NCBI RefSeq assembly: GCF_000565075.1
Contig: NZ_JDFG01000047.1
Location: forward strand, 1-64,000
Reading direction: 5' to 3'
Length of the DNA: 64,000 bases
Origin: Atopobium sp. BS2
GTDB taxonomy: Bacteria; Actinomycetota; Coriobacteriia; Coriobacteriales; Atopobiaceae
Part shown: positions 1-35,502 of the stretch, in pieces
How the letters are laid out: each line of letters starts with the position of its first letter
Numbering within the stretch: position 1 is the stretch's first letter
Translations under genes and position numbers: made by a program
The notes under the pieces: generated by a model
Database searches by the model: none
Told to the model about the DNA's origin: nothing
What the model saw: the letters and a program-made list of their open reading frames with translations, nothing else

Positions 1-15
1 AATACCCCAATCATG

Positions 16-92
16 CAGATTATCGTCATTAGGTGTGTAAAATGCCCGCATCTGAGCAGAATATCCGACTTAGGTGTGTTCCTTAGGTGCGG
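16..92 (+). repeat. Short array of degenerate 22-bp repeats (family A)
   Basis: Two copies of a 22-bp unit start at 16 and 57 (41 bp apart); each begins CAGA(T/A)TATC and ends TTAGGTGTG. A third, partial copy of only the right end (TTAGGTGCGG) lies at 83-92. The same unit occurs eight more times at 32149-32473. The copies diverge from one another, there is no cas gene, and the spacing is irregular, so this is not a CRISPR array. More copies may lie left of the window. Function unknown. Confidence 0.7.
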
Positions 93-319
93 AATTTACC
101 TATAGTTAAATCTTTTATATGACGCTATTCATTTTCTAGCATATTAGGTTAAGTTTATGCATAGAGATGAATATCGGGTAGTACGACCGCCTAGCTGCCT
201 GGCTATCTTGATTAAGAATATGTCGATTCTTCAGCAGAACACAAGAAAGCTGCACTATTTTGTGCGCCAGGCCTAAAAGCCGACGCTAACACGCTACAGA
301 ATCATAATCACCCGCATAT

Positions 320-363
320 GAACTGCCTCCCATTTCTTATGTCCAAGAAATGGGAGGCAGTTC
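320..363. repeat. Perfect 19-bp inverted repeat (hairpin) beyond ftsH
   Basis: Arms 320-338 (GAACTGCCTCCCATTTCTT) and 345-363 are exact reverse complements with a 6-nt loop. On the minus strand the hairpin sits about 38 nt past the ftsH stop codon, so it may end or protect the ftsH transcript. It has no T-tract on either side, so it is not a textbook intrinsic terminator. The rest of 93-401 shows no gene. Confidence 0.7.
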
Positions 364-401
364 AGAATAGGCGGCCGTTTAATTTTACTTATGAGACAAA
401 G

Positions 402-2336
402 TTACTCTGCTGAAGAAGTAGAGGAGCCTTCCTCATTGGTGTTCTCAACTACCGGTGCAAAGGTATTCTCACGTTTAAGGATGTTCATGAACTCCTCGCC
501 GGTGATAGTTTCCTTCTTCTGCAGGTAGTGAGCAATTTCATGCAGCTTAAAGCGGTTCTCTTTAAGCGTCTGGAGTGCACGCTGGTGGCCCTCTTCAACA
601 ATGCGTCTAACTTCAGCATCGATCTCTTCAGCTGTTGCCTCAGAGCAGGTTAGGGAAGAGCCACCACCAAGGTAGCGACTTTGCTGCTGGCTGAGGGTAA
701 CCATGCCAAGTTTGTCAGACATGCCGTACTGCGTAACCATAGCGCGGGCAATTGCTGTTGCACGCTCAATATCGTTGGAAGCGCCATTGGTCATCTCGCC
801 AAAGATAAGTTCTTCAGCAGCACGACCACCACAGAGAACAGCAATCTCATCCATTGCTTGGCTTTTGCTCATGAGATAACGTTCATCATCCTCAACCTGC
901 ATGGTAAAGCCAAGAGCTCCGCCAGTACGAGGAACAATGGTGATCTTGGTAACAGGAGCATCGTTTTTCTGGATGGCACCAACAATTGCATGGCCGGTCT
1001 CGTGATAAGCCACAACGTCCTTCTCGTGCTCAGAAAGAACAGTGTTCTTCTTCTTAGCGCCGGCAATAACAACGTCAACGGACTCAGCAAGGTCTTCGGT
1101 GGTAACACGACGACGACCAAAGCGAACAGCACGAAGAGCTGCCTCATTGATGATGTTTGCAAGGTCTGCACCGGATGCGCCTGGTGTGGACTTAGCAATA
1201 ATAGAGAGGTCAACGCCTGGCTCCATCTTTACATCATTGGCGTGAATCTGAAGAACTGCCTCACGACCCTTAAGGTCTGGAAGCTCAACAGGAATACGGC
1301 GGTCAAAACGGCCAGGACGCAGAAGTGCCTTGTCCAAGGTCTCAGGGCGGTTAGTTGCTGCAAGAACAACAATACCCTTGTGGTTATCAAAGCCGTCCAT
1401 CTCAGAGAGCAGCTGGTTTAAGGTTTGCTCACGCTCATCGTTGGAGTTGAGAGAAGCATCACGGCGCTTACCAACCGCATCAATCTCGTCAATAAAAATG
1501 ATGCAAGGAGCCTTTTCATTTGCTTGCTTGAAGAGGTCACGGACTTTTGCAGCACCGCGTCCAACAAACATCTCAACAAACTCAGAGCCAGCAATCTGGA
1601 AGAAAGGAACGCCAGCCTCACCAGCAACTGCCTTAGCAATGAGGGTCTTACCAGTACCTGGAGGGCCTACAAGCAAGGCGCCACGAGGGCAGCGAGCACC
1701 AATCTCTTTGTACTTATCAGGAGTCTTAAGGAAGCTAACAATCTCTTGCATAGACTCTTTAGCCTCTTCTTGACCAGCTACGTCTTTAAACGTAATGCCT
1801 GTGTCTTCTCCCTTAATTTCTTTAGCGCTTGAGCGACCAAGATTGCCGCCAAGACCTCCAAAGCCGCCACCAAAGTTCATGGAAGGACCATCGTCACCCA
1901 TGGCGCGTTTAAGGGATCGGTTGATAAAGTAGCCAATGCCCAAGAAGATGACAAGAGGGATTCCATACTGAATAAGGGCATAGAGCAGCATATTTGTAGA
2001 GTTGTCAGGAATAGAAGCCGAGAAATCAACTTTGTGATCTCTAAGCGTCTGAACCAGTGTTGCATCATTAGGGAACTGTGTGGTCTCAAAGACCTTCTCG
2101 GAATCTCCAGAGCCAGTTGTGAACCTAATGTTTCTGCTGCCCGTATTAAGGTCTACCTTGGTAACTTCATTATTGTCAACCTTGTTAAGGAACTCACTGT
2201 ACGAGACAGTTTGTACCTGTTGACGCAGAAGTCCTGGTAATAATGTGTTGCTAAGCAGGAGATATACAAAGATGGCTACTGCAATATAGAGTAGCATCGA
2301 CATAGATCTACGGTGCTTGTTATCGTTATTTGCCAT
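402..2336 (-). CDS. ftsH: ATP-dependent zinc metalloprotease FtsH
   Basis: Membrane-bound AAA+ protease that degrades damaged or regulatory membrane and cytosolic proteins. The 644-residue product has an N-terminal transmembrane segment ([16 protein letters not shown]), an extracytoplasmic FtsH_ext region, a second membrane segment near residues 125-140, then the AAA module with Walker A GPPGTGKT (224-231), Walker B FIDEIDAV and the SRH region with RPGRFDR. The zinc site HETGH is at 445-449. Length and domain order are usual. The ATG at 2336 was chosen because AAAGGGA lies upstream at good spacing; an in-frame TTG at 2363 would add nine residues but is less likely. It is transcribed away from ileS. 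Confidence 0.97.
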
Positions 2337-2530
2337 ACACGTCCCTTTACCTGTTTGGCTCAAATGTGATATGAGCTCACTTAGATATTGGAATTGTTTT
2401 ACCCAATCTACATTTTTTATTTCTATAAAAATTTAAAATTTGGATTCCGCATAATTTGTTAAAAACGGTTTAAGCGTGTGTATTACTTAGTTCAATGAGT
2501 GCAAGACGTGGTAGTATTACTTACACAAGC

Positions 2531-30273: not shown

Positions 30274-30288
30274 GAGAGGATGATACAA

Positions 30289-31944
30289 ATGCCAAAAACA
30301 GGTGGATCTGTTCTGACGGCCGAGCAGGAAAAAGAGCTGCTAAAGCCTATTGATCAGAAGATTGGTTCCATTCAGGCTCAGATTGATGAGCTTCGCGCAA
30401 ATGGTACCAACAAAGTAATTTCAACACTGAGCGCTATTGAATCAACAAAGCGCGATAAATCTATCTCTGCTGAAGAGCGCAACACGCTTATTGAGGGCTA
30501 CAAGGCTGAGCTGGAGCTTGCAAAGAAGGTTGAGTCCGAGAACAGTGCTCAGGTCTCCAAGCTTATTGCAGAGGCCGAGGCTTATCTCAAGGAGCACTAC
30601 AAGAGCGAGTATCTTGAGCCAGTTAAGGCAAGCTGTGCCGTAGAGAAGGAGCAGGCTAAGCAGAATTACGCTGCTGCTCTTGAGCGCCTCAAGAAGGAGC
30701 ACGAAGAGGCTGTCAGCAAGACTTCTGATGCTCAGGAAATCAAGGACGAGAAGTACGTCTATAAGAACCGTCAGTTTGATGCTAAGGTCAACTATCAGAA
30801 GGATCTTCAGCGCATCAAAGACCGCGCTCATAATGCGTTCAGTCATGAGTATCACCTCATCGACCTTCTCAGGATGTCTAAGTTTACTCCACTGGAGTCT
30901 CAGGCTCAGAAGTGGGAGAACTACAAGTACACCTTCAACACCCGTTCATTCTTGCTTCAGAACGGTCTGTACATTGTTATTCTCCTGGTATTTATTGCCC
31001 TTTGTATCATTACCCCAGCAGTCAAGGGCACTCAGCTTCTGACATACTCCAATGTCATCAACATTCTTCAGCAGGCATCACCTCGAATGTTCCTGGCTCT
31101 TGGTGTAGCTGGATTGATTCTGCTTACTGGTACTGACCTGTCTATTGGTCGTATGGTTGGTATGGGCATGACTGCTTCAACCATCATCATGCACCAGGGC
31201 ATCAATACTGGCCAGGTCTTTGGAATCACTTTTGATTTTACTGGTGTTCCAATTCCTGTCAGAATCATCATGGCTCTGGTTACCTGTATTGTCCTGTGCA
31301 CCTGCTTTACCAGTATCGCTGGCTTCTTTACCGCTAAGTTTAAGATGCACCCATTCATCTCGACCATGGCTAACATGCTGATCATCTTTGGTATTGTTAC
31401 CTATGCAACAAAGGGTGTTTCGTTTGGCGCTATCGAGCCATCCATTCCAGACATGGTTATTCCACGAATTGGTAAATTCCCATCCATCATTTTGTGGGCA
31501 ATCGCAGCTATCGCCATTGTTTGGTTCATCTGGAACAAGACCACCTTTGGTAAGAATCTCTATGCAGTAGGTGGAAACCCTGAGGCAGCAGCTGTTTCCG
31601 GTATCTCTGTCTTTAGAGTTATGGTTGGCGCTTTTGTTATGGCTGGTATCCTCTACGGATTTGGTTCATGGCTCGAGTGCATGCGTATGGTCGGCTCTGG
31701 TTCCGCAGCTTACGGCCAGGGTTGGGACATGGACGCAATCGCAGCCTGCGTTGTTGGTGGCGTCTCGTTCACCGGTGGTATTGGTAAGATCTCCGGTGTT
31801 ACCGTGGGTGTTCTTATCTTCACCGCACTGACTTACGCACTGACCATTCTTGGTATCGACACCAACCTGCAGTTTGTCTTCTCGGGCGTCATTATTCTGA
31901 CCGCTGTCACCCTTGACTGCTTGAAGTACGTCCAGAAGAAGTAA
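30289..31944 (+). CDS. mglC: Galactose ABC importer permease (MglC-like) with long coiled-coil N-terminus
   Basis: Membrane subunit of the sugar importer. 551 residues, about 200 more than the ~330 usual for MglC. Residues ~1-215 are highly charged, Glu/Lys/Ala-rich and predicted helical coiled coil; the permease domain follows from the helix LYIVILLVFIALCI (~222) with the family motif GTDLSIGRMVGMG. The extension is in frame with no stop and uses the same codons as its neighbours, so it is not a sequencing artefact on its face. ATG 30280 is an alternative start, but AGGAGAGG fits 30289 better. Confidence 0.9.
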   Translation: MPKTGGSVLTAEQEKELLKPIDQKIGSIQAQIDELRANGTNKVISTLSAIESTKRDKSISAEERNTLIEGYKAELELAKKVESENSAQVSKLIAEAEAYLKEHYKSEYLEPVKASCAVEKEQAKQNYAAALERLKKEHEEAVSKTSDAQEIKDEKYVYKNRQFDAKVNYQKDLQRIKDRAHNAFSHEYHLIDLLRMSKFTPLESQAQKWENYKYTFNTRSFLLQNGLYIVILLVFIALCIITPAVKGTQLLTYSNVINILQQASPRMFLALGVAGLILLTGTDLSIGRMVGMGMTASTIIMHQGINTGQVFGITFDFTGVPIPVRIIMALVTCIVLCTCFTSIAGFFTAKFKMHPFISTMANMLIIFGIVTYATKGVSFGAIEPSIPDMVIPRIGKFPSIILWAIAAIAIVWFIWNKTTFGKNLYAVGGNPEAAAVSGISVFRVMVGAFVMAGILYGFGSWLECMRMVGSGSAAYGQGWDMDAIAACVVGGVSFTGGIGKISGVTVGVLIFTALTYALTILGIDTNLQFVFSGVIILTAVTLDCLKYVQKK

Positions 31945-32148: not shown

Positions 32149-32473
32149 CACACCTATGTCAGATAATCTGCAATTTTTGACCCTGAGAGCACACCTATGG
32201 CTGATATTCTGCAGTTTTAAAGAGAAATAACACACCAATGTCAAAAAATATGTTAACTATCGACAGATTATCTGACTTTACTGTGGTCGGGCTTCTCGAT
32301 ACATGCAGATTATCCGACTTTACTGTGGTCGGGCTTCTCGATACATGCAGATTATCTGACGTAGGCGTGGTCAGGGCGTTGAGTAGAGCTATCTGCGACA
32401 GATTATCCGACATAGGTGTGTTAGAAGGGTCAAATCAGACCCCACATCCAACAGAATATCTGACTTTGCTGTG
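32149..32473. repeat. Array of eight degenerate 22-bp repeats (family A), two orientations
   Basis: Units on the minus strand lie at 32149-32170, 32190-32211 and (degenerate) 32231-32252. Units on the plus strand start at 32264, 32306, 32348, 32399 and 32452. The unit begins CAGA(T/A)TATC(C/T)GAC and ends (T)AGGTGTG or variants such as CTGTG. Units 32264-32305 and 32306-32347 are near-identical 42-bp tandem copies. The rest of the gap 31945-32662 holds only the two terminators. The array lies between convergent operons; function unknown. Confidence 0.75.
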
Positions 32474-32662: not shown

Positions 32663-34300
32663 CTACAGAGACTCGAGGAAGCGATGCTGTGCTGCTCGTC
32701 CTTCTTCGTCCCACTTGAATACGCCGGCGTCCTCTAAAACGTGCGAGAAGACAATCCCGACTTCGTCGTAGATGTACTTCTTAAGCTGCTCGGACGAGAG
32801 GGAAGAGCTGCCCTTCTTTGAAGCAGCATCCTTGCTGGATCCGTCACCCTGTTCAAGCAACTTGGCGTAAATCTGGCGCGCCCAGTCGGCGTGGGAGATT
32901 GTAGTAGAGTCCGTGGTCAACTGACCGTAGACGGCATTGGCTTTCTTGTCATTTGCTAGGCACTGCTCCATAACTGACTGAACTTTGTTGAGTTCTGGCA
33001 CAAGGCGAGGAGGAAGTACGGCAAGGCCCATAACCTCGATGAGGCCGATATTCTCTTTCTTGATGTGGTGATACTCGGCATGTGGATGGAAGATGCCAAG
33101 CGGATGTTTTTCGCTGGTAATGTTGCAGCGCAATGCAAGGAAGACCTCGTAGATGCCATCTTCCAGCTTGCGAACAACAGGGGTAACCGTGTTGTGGGGC
33201 TCGCCGTTAGTTTCTGCATAAACAGAGACGGACTCGTCGGTATAGGAGCGCCATGCAGTGATGATAAATTCCGCTGCTTTGAGCGCTTCTTCTCGACTGG
33301 TGGAGGAGAGGCGGAGAACAGAGAGCGGCCACTTGAGGATCGCGCCCGCTACCTCGGGGAACTGCCTGAGTTCAAACTCTTCCGCAACTTCCGCGCGCAT
33401 CATAGGAAACTCGTAACATCCGCCCTGGTAGTGATCGTGCGAGAGGATCGATCCACCCACAATAGGCAGGTCGGCATTAGAGCCAATAAAGTAGTGGGGG
33501 AATCTATCCACAAAGTCAAAGAGATTGACGAGCGCCTCGTGATCAATGTGCATAGGAATGTGATCCGAGTTCATAGCAATGCAATGCTCATTGAAGTACG
33601 CGTATGGACTGTACTGGAATCCCCAACGATGCTGATTGAGTTCAATGGGGATGATGCGCAGGTTTTGCCTAGCAGGATGAGCACCCGCGCCAGACGAAGC
33701 GCCGCGTCCGGAGTAGCCCTCGTTATCCAGGCAGAGTTGGCATGCGGGGTACTTCTCGCCAGAAGTGTTTTGAGCTGTTTTAGCTGCTGCAATCTCACGA
33801 GGGTCTTTTTCTGGCTTGGAGAGGTTGATGGTGATCTCAAGGTCTCCCCAGGTAGTTGGCGTAGTCCAGGTAATGTTTCTGGCAATGGCGCTTCTTCTGA
33901 CATAGCCTGAATCGCAGCAGAGCGCGTAGAACCAGTCAGTTGCGGCGCGAGGTCCCTCGGCAACGTACAGCTCATTGAAATGGCGTGCCACCTCGGAAGG
34001 CTTTGGCAGCAAAAGACCCATGACGCGCATGGCAAAAGAGTCTTCGCCGCTCTGGGTGTTCTCGGCCAGACCATGAGCAACAGCCAGACGGGCAAGCTCG
34101 GCAAGCGTCTGGTCAAGATCAAACGACTCCAGTTCAATCTTCTCCCAAGGCTTAACGGGAGCGGGACCCTCGTACGAAAGCATGTCCAACAGCGCGTTAT
34201 AGCACCAGGTCAGATCCTCGGTTTGAATGAGACCACGCTCACAGGCATATACAACAAGCTGTTGAATGCAAAGAGCACTTTCATTGTCTGCTACAGCCAT
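32663..34300 (-). CDS. galT: Galactose-1-phosphate uridylyltransferase, class II
   Basis: Exchanges UMP between UDP-glucose and galactose-1-phosphate in the Leloir pathway. 545 residues, the size of the Firmicutes-type class II enzyme rather than the ~350-residue GalT of E. coli. Recognisable segments are IVGGSILSHDHYQGG and GIFHPHAEYHHIKKENIGLIEVMGLAVLP, which carry the active-site His cluster. ATG 34300 overlaps the end of galK by 10 nt; a TTG at 34309 is a weaker alternative because AGGGAG would be too close. Confidence 0.93.
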   Translation of the reverse strand: MAVADNESALCIQQLVVYACERGLIQTEDLTWCYNALLDMLSYEGPAPVKPWEKIELESFDLDQTLAELARLAVAHGLAENTQSGEDSFAMRVMGLLLPKPSEVARHFNELYVAEGPRAATDWFYALCCDSGYVRRSAIARNITWTTPTTWGDLEITINLSKPEKDPREIAAAKTAQNTSGEKYPACQLCLDNEGYSGRGASSGAGAHPARQNLRIIPIELNQHRWGFQYSPYAYFNEHCIAMNSDHIPMHIDHEALVNLFDFVDRFPHYFIGSNADLPIVGGSILSHDHYQGGCYEFPMMRAEVAEEFELRQFPEVAGAILKWPLSVLRLSSTSREEALKAAEFIITAWRSYTDESVSVYAETNGEPHNTVTPVVRKLEDGIYEVFLALRCNITSEKHPLGIFHPHAEYHHIKKENIGLIEVMGLAVLPPRLVPELNKVQSVMEQCLANDKKANAVYGQLTTDSTTISHADWARQIYAKLLEQGDGSSKDAASKKGSSSLSSEQLKKYIYDEVGIVFSHVLEDAGVFKWDEEGRAAQHRFLESL

Positions 34301-35502
34301 TGTGCACAAGCTCCCTGGTCAGAGATGGCGTAGTGGCGGCAGGCACCTTCGCCAAACCACTGGTTCATCTGTGCGATGAAGGTCTCGACTAGAGCGAGAG
34401 GAACAAAGCACTGGATAGAGCCACCAAAACCGCCACCGTGAATGCGAACGGCACCAGAACCTTTTAAGATGCTCTCGGCCAAACCGAGGGCAAGCATTGC
34501 TGGCTGATACGAGCCAGAAGTAGAAACGTTCTGCAGGTACATGCCGGAGCTTGCGCCAGAAGCGTTAGTGAGTGCAATAAAGGACTCAATATCGGAATTC
34601 TGAAGGTCTACCCATCTCTTGTCTACCAGGTCATTCTCATACCAGTAGTGAATAGCGCGGAGAAGAGCGCGGTCTCCAAGATCTTCTCGCAGCTCATTGA
34701 CGCGGGCTTGGAAGTCTTCAACCGGAACCTCAGAGAGGCGAGTCTTGCCAAAAGCCGCGGCAACTTTCTGCATCTCAACAGGTACCGCGGCATACTCATC
34801 GGTGAAGGCAACGTGATCACAGCCAACATCAACAAGGCAGAGAGCATAGCCGTAATCCTCAAAGTTGAGGTCTAGCTTTTCTGCCTGTGGCTCTGCGGGA
34901 TCTTCAAAGTTCATAAAGGCAAGGCCGCCAAGGCAAACAGCGAGCTGATCCATAAGACCGCACGGCTTACCAAAGTAAACGTTTTCTGTGTTCTGGCTCA
35001 TTTGGGCAAGTTTAACAGCAGAAATCTCGCTGCCACCTTCCCAGAGAGCTTCCATTGCACGGCCGGCTGCAGCCTCAAACGCAGCAGAGGAAGAAAGTCC
35101 GCCGCCGCCAGGAACATTGCTTACTACAGCCATGTCAAAGCCGGATGGCTCAAAACCAAGTTTGACCAGGTTTGCTGCCATGCCACGAACAATAGCCTTA
35201 GTGCTCAGATACTCAGCCTCGGAGGGCTCAAGGTTTGTGTAGTCAACCTCAAAAGGATCATATCCCACACTGGCTACACGAATAACGCCCAGGTTGTTAG
35301 GGGCGCAAATTGCATCAATAGCAACATCCAGGGCACCAGCGATGACATGACCGCCCTCGTGATCAGTGTGATTACCAGCAATCTCGGAGCGACCAGGCGC
35401 ATGTACTGCAAGATAGCGGTCAGCTTTTCCGAACATTTGCTCAAAGTGCTCTTTTGCGCGATTGAGCTGAGCTGTGGTTTTCTCGTCAAACGTGTGAGCC
35501 AT
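34291..35502 (-). CDS. galK: Galactokinase
   Basis: Phosphorylates galactose at C1 with ATP. 403 residues of the GHMP kinase family. Visible motifs are the galactokinase signature GRSEIAGNHTDHEGG, the ATP-binding GGGLSSSAAFE loop and the C-terminal GGGFGGSIQCF motif. ATG 35502 has AAAGGAA upstream. It is the middle gene of galM-galK-galT and overlaps galT. Confidence 0.95.
   Translation of the reverse strand: MAHTFDEKTTAQLNRAKEHFEQMFGKADRYLAVHAPGRSEIAGNHTDHEGGHVIAGALDVAIDAICAPNNLGVIRVASVGYDPFEVDYTNLEPSEAEYLSTKAIVRGMAANLVKLGFEPSGFDMAVVSNVPGGGGLSSSAAFEAAAGRAMEALWEGGSEISAVKLAQMSQNTENVYFGKPCGLMDQLAVCLGGLAFMNFEDPAEPQAEKLDLNFEDYGYALCLVDVGCDHVAFTDEYAAVPVEMQKVAAAFGKTRLSEVPVEDFQARVNELREDLGDRALLRAIHYWYENDLVDKRWVDLQNSDIESFIALTNASGASSGMYLQNVSTSGSYQPAMLALGLAESILKGSGAVRIHGGGFGGSIQCFVPLALVETFIAQMNQWFGEGACRHYAISDQGACAQWL

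Follow-up and report, generated by a model that had tools for sequence, protein, structure and literature searches.

A short element with IS3-type ends that carries an array of 22-bp units and interrupts terminator hairpins in an Atopobium genome

The window analysed here, a stretch of 64,000 bp (C47:1-64000) from the 1.60-Mb, 49-contig genome of Atopobium sp. BS2 (G000), begins with part of a 462-bp gene-less mobile element that has the ends of an IS3-family insertion sequence (IS) and a body containing repeated 22-bp units. The account that we consider likely has two layers, in which IS3 ends dispersed an older array of helically phased units. The dispersal layer is largely established, with the discrete insertion, its target, its ends and its partner IS all directly observed, and the layer concerning the cargo is established in part.

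The element at the contig start and its insertion sites

The following features were assigned at the start of the window:
1-364, reverse strand: 462-bp IS3-derived gene-less element, truncated here, its modules matching those of full 462-bp copies
16-37, forward strand: middle-type (M) unit CAGATTATCGTCATTAGGTGTG, with a GTCATT centre
57-78, forward strand: outer-type unit CAGAATATCCGACTTAGGTGTG
79-318, reverse strand: left module, consisting of an AT-rich arm and about 140 bp ending at CTGCAGCG
83-92, forward strand: part of the left module, read earlier as a partial unit
319-364, no strand: 46-bp terminal palindrome TGAACTGCCTCCCATTTC...GAAATGGGAGGCAGTTCA, the outer half of which is the IS left terminal repeat
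365-383, no strand: half of the interrupted ftsH terminator (gaataggcggccgtttaat)
402-2363, reverse strand: ftsH (TIGR01241 above cut-off), the neighbour whose terminator is interrupted

The window copy lies in reverse orientation and is truncated by the assembly, since the window starts at the start of contig C47 and the remainder of the element falls beyond it. A BLAST query taken from another copy (L041:400-800) matched C47:3-295 and the palindrome at C47:319-364. The AT-rich arm of the left module contains the motifs TATGCATAAA, ATGAATAG, TATATAA and TTTAACTAT, and the final ~20 bp of the module, next to the palindrome, are similar to the left end of the IS (ATGCGgg). The first-pass annotation had confined this feature to positions 1-92, with two full units and a partial one; the array is indeed there and both full units were recovered at 16-37 and 57-78, but the feature extends from position 1 to 364, and 83-92 holds no unit, the stretch belonging to the left module and reading AAATTCCGCACCTAAGGAA in the window and AAATTCTGTATCTACGGAA in other copies.

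The other half of the ftsH terminator was found, together with the other palindrome, at the end of contig C34 (L107). In the congener G002 the corresponding site is empty: ftsH is followed by an intact terminator (AAACGGCCATCTAC...GTAGATGGCCGTTT), and the C34 end matches the gene that lies beyond this terminator. Window positions 1-97 and L107 border one site by synteny, yet they differ in their units; the C34 tail is without units 1 and M and joins TTACGC to TACCTATAG, while the window has both units, a mismatch that reflects either assembly ambiguity or a polymorphic copy.

By the count of right-hand junctions the own genome holds about 19 copies of the element, many of them cut by contig ends. 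Full copies are 461-462 bp long and 87-91% identical (five measured), no conserved open reading frame was noted in them, and in this genome the 46-bp palindrome TGAACTGCCTCC...GGAGGCAGTTCA stands at either end of most copies. The terminal repeat TGAACTGCCTCCCATTTCTTGGAC is identical to the left end of an IS in the same genome. Target duplications of 3 bp were present at 10 of 11 element insertions, the eleventh being the window pair with flanks TTC/CTC, and also at IS copies of G000 and G002. Joining the flanks re-formed a hairpin at all 11 insertions examined, five of which were rebuilt by pairing contig ends on stem complementarity, so that there the duplication is the only independent evidence. 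Two empty sites were compared directly, namely G002 430151-432352 with G000 C46:29k, where a clean 462-bp insertion with a 3-bp duplication lies in a terminator hairpin, and G002 518.4k with C12:169k; in both cases G002 has an intact bidirectional terminator hairpin and G000 has the element inside it. The insertions thus lie in hairpins of intrinsic terminators, nearly always in the loop.

Short, multi-copy, bounded by IS terminal repeats and with target duplications and empty sites, the element belongs, as a new member, to the IS-derived MITEs and has a marked preference in its target. The empty sites, the duplications and the autonomous IS described below bear out, for positions 1-92, the earlier suggestion of a dispersed element or the footprint of a mobile unit, and all elements examined were located in gene gaps, as had been proposed. 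Two irregular loci were also recorded: a lone terminal palindrome at the start of contig C3 (L144, 1-130), probably an assembly chimera, shares its left flank with the C22 end and carries the right-hand partner of the C1 end, and the left flank at the end of contig C48 (L042) carries a tandem run of GGTATTC type in place of the left module of the element.

The partner insertion sequence and its preference for terminator hairpins

The autonomous IS is intact in the own genome (contig C37; 1454 bp) and encodes OrfA, with HTH domains, and OrfB, which has an HTH_21 and an rve domain; the two frames overlap, as in the IS3 family, OrfA and OrfB are predicted to be joined by a frameshift, and the right end of the IS is GTCCAAGTTTTGGGACGCAGTTCA. 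Insertion sequences with the palindrome of the element as their left end also occur in G002 and G003. From its end sequence the IS may tentatively be placed in the IS150 subgroup. It shares with IS150-type members of the IS3 family a two-HTH OrfA, an OrfB with HTH_21 and rve (DDE) domains, an A-run in the overlap, TG..CA ends and a 3-bp duplication; unlike them, it inserts in the loops of terminator hairpins and has a left end in which a T-run follows a subterminal palindrome. The gene-less element has two such left ends and no right end, which is an unusual pair for IS3 transposition. Given the identity of the ends and the target duplications, the element is presumably mobilised in trans by the IS transposase, which would pick intrinsic-terminator hairpins, mostly the loop, and leave 3-bp duplications.

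The target preference was assessed with 39 IS copies whose ends were found and the 11 element sites. The insertion point was enclosed by a helix of 8 bp or more at 26 of the IS sites and 10 of the element sites, compared with 18% of random nearby points (Mann-Whitney p=2e-16). Of 140 genomes of the family, 29 contain close relatives of OrfB. The IS copies of other genera of the family (L204-L243) show that the wider clade also resides in loops of terminator-like hairpins, and at L143 (G002:1083054) an isolated IS left end with its T-run stands without adjacent transposase or units. A captured host terminator was considered as the origin of the terminal palindrome and dropped, the palindrome being the IS left end.

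The IS3-family elements IS1397 and ISKpn1 enter intergenic REP palindromes specifically (PMC1525189); the target here differs in consisting of structurally similar terminators of unrelated sequence and not of one repeat family. In the part of the literature covered, no paper on IS3 elements choosing terminators was found.

The array of 22-bp units

A second array in the window lies about 32 kb from the element, between convergent genes, and has no IS ends:
30280-31944, forward strand: sugar ABC permease (galactose-type), neighbour of the array
32149-32473, no strand: old array without IS ends
32149-32170, reverse strand: unit 1
32190-32211, reverse strand: unit 2
32231-32252, reverse strand: unit 3 (degenerate)
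32264-32285, forward strand: unit 4
32306-32327, forward strand: unit 5 (tandem duplicate, 42 bp, of the unit 4 region)
32348-32369, forward strand: unit 6
32399-32420, forward strand: unit 7
32452-32473, forward strand: unit 8
32663-34309, reverse strand: galT-like gene, neighbour of the array

All eight units that the first-pass annotation had placed at 32149-32473 are present. Same-strand spacing is 41-42 bp at first and then 51-53 bp. Several loci without IS ends, this array included, are common to G000 and G002 at orthologous gene gaps; its orthologue is G002:903787-903923, the number of units differs between the two species, and at the same locus the congener G004 has no array, just a short gap with a terminator. 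Were the units independent operators of a regulator of neighbouring genes, which we regard as very improbable, the galactose-type permease and the galT-like gene beside this array would fit such a role, but most array sites stand apart from promoters, where convergent genes have their 3' ends.

The units of the window differ from the 22-bp consensus by 1-5 mismatches; when the window was shuffled under a dinucleotide model, about 0.2 matches appeared at 6 mismatches and none better. Genome-wide, 75 unit sites, split 36 to 39 between the strands, were found at up to 3 mismatches and none for the reversed control pattern; the frequency check proposed in the first-pass annotation thus speaks for the motif. 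Among 120 relatives searched at 2 mismatches, units occurred only in the own genome and in G002, and at a looser setting the counts in G001, G003 and G004 were no higher than the control. Across 84,980 species genomes (own and near records excluded) the unit pattern gave three single, chance-like matches. No named repeat with this 22-bp unit was found, in agreement with the earlier reading, and an Rfam scan returned no match above gathering score. REP/BIME elements require palindromic units, and the present unit is asymmetric as a whole; a CRISPR array needs near-identical direct repeats separated by unique spacers of even length, whereas these units are degenerate and occur in both orientations with related spacers.

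The units are arranged in a fixed core of 127 bp, with a unit on the reverse strand at 0, typically a variant unit with a GTCATT centre on the reverse strand at 41, and an inverted unit on the forward strand at 105. About 28 core loci were counted in the own genome and 11 in G002, with none found elsewhere. To the left of the core lies an AT-rich arm with fixed motifs, in which single-base indels occur. The outer units are 105 bp apart, and the sole alternative seen, 115 bp at three further G002 loci, is longer by about one helical turn; the spacings between units on one strand (41, 42, 51 and 53 bp) agree with whole turns of the helix (R=0.91, p~0.007; few independent values). At locus L010, GC-rich tandem repeats of CGCACCCTCGCG type follow the core beside an old array. 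On the G002 chromosome, 6 of the 11 arrays are no more than 124 kb away from the replication origin, the origin bias of the 11 loci being weak (one-sided KS p=0.03, post hoc).

In eight ortholog pairs the units were 90% and the spacers 82% identical (p=2e-4). This difference comes mainly from the oldest pairs, three of which have the 127-bp core and show 91% identity in units and 72% in spacers (p=6e-7); in the other five pairs, which are newer and longer, units were hardly or no more conserved than spacers. Between paralogous groups, units were 79-94% identical and spacers as little as 48%, with zero gaps, this comparison having used copies of the 127-bp type, so that other lengths may occur. 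Conserved units, diverged spacers, the lack of gaps in the cores compared and the one-turn-longer alternative spacing together suggest a phased multi-site protein-DNA complex on the units. The protein-binding array proposed in the first-pass annotation gains accordingly at the old loci, where unit type and spacing are conserved as would be expected of protein sites.

A long transcript stem formed by the inverted outer units, so that the array would act as RNA (a small RNA or a terminator-like structure), appears improbable to us. Units 1 and 3 can form a 22-bp stem, some changes are two-sided (17 cells, against 10 in shuffles) and a T-run is frequent after unit 3; several column pairs vary independently, which disfavours such a stem, columns 18/110 being unpaired in 13 of 24 copies and columns 13/115 in 6. 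The covariation term of the consensus fold is just -0.2, pairing between the middle unit and unit 3 is poor (79% of cells), and there is, as noted, no Rfam match. An RNA fold of the left module came out weak.

Rather unlikely, in our judgement, is a wholly selfish origin, in which the array would be the decayed ends of an older, extinct transposon with multi-site ends of the Mu or Tn7 kind and would serve no host function. The repeated and inverted units of about 22 bp do resemble multi-site transposase ends, and no common host gene context was noticed. The enrichment in convergent gaps would also fit mobile DNA that avoids damage, as has been argued for BOX, RUP and SPRITE (PMC3049150). Against it, old orthologous loci have kept their units and geometry better than their spacers, which is unexpected for dead ends, and the outer ends read 5'-CACA..TGTG-3' and not TG..CA. 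Moreover, no gene-bearing element with units was found in the two genomes, blastn against phages and plasmids gave no match, and the viral contigs searched contained no unit pattern.

Under the two-layer account, a module consisting of the AT-rich arm and three 22-bp units stood at several convergent gene ends before the two species split, and IS ends later captured one such module and spread it. In the mechanism that we regard as most likely, a lineage-specific DNA-binding protein would occupy the units on one helix face and draw the inverted outer pair together across 10 or 11 turns, giving a compact loop at gene ends. For this bridged loop a role as roadblock or insulator, or as nucleoid (chromosome) anchor, is proposed on the basis of its position at convergent gene ends.

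Relation to known systems and implications

Arrays bound by proteins at multiple sites, such as the transposase ends of Mu and Tn7 and phage stoperators, consist of repeated asymmetric sites in a set geometry. The present array is alike in its geometry and differs in that its protein partner is putative and its unit was detected in just two species. The RUP and BOX MITEs are short, gene-less and intergenic, with inverted terminal repeats, a target duplication and a bias to convergent gaps (PMC3049150, PMC10969869), traits shared by the element. Unlike them, it has two IS left ends as its ends and a body formed by a conserved, phased array that predates its mobile form, and this conserved internal array makes it a departure from known MITEs.

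We put forward only tentatively, and at somewhat less than even chance, that the array represents a new, lineage-specific class of host nucleoprotein complex, with at least three 22-bp sites at helical-turn spacing forming a loop of 10 or 11 turns where convergent genes end, which was captured by IS3 ends and is still being seeded into terminator loops throughout the chromosome.

The findings identify an IS3-type clade, with relatives in the 29 family genomes mentioned above, that inserts largely in the loops of terminator hairpins, a ubiquitous target where insertion does little damage. They also show clearly that an IS-derived element can carry an array which is under constraint and existed beforehand. 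The conserved array inside the element is the part most worth experiment; if it is truly a protein complex, this lineage would have in it a new, testable participant at the ends of convergent genes.
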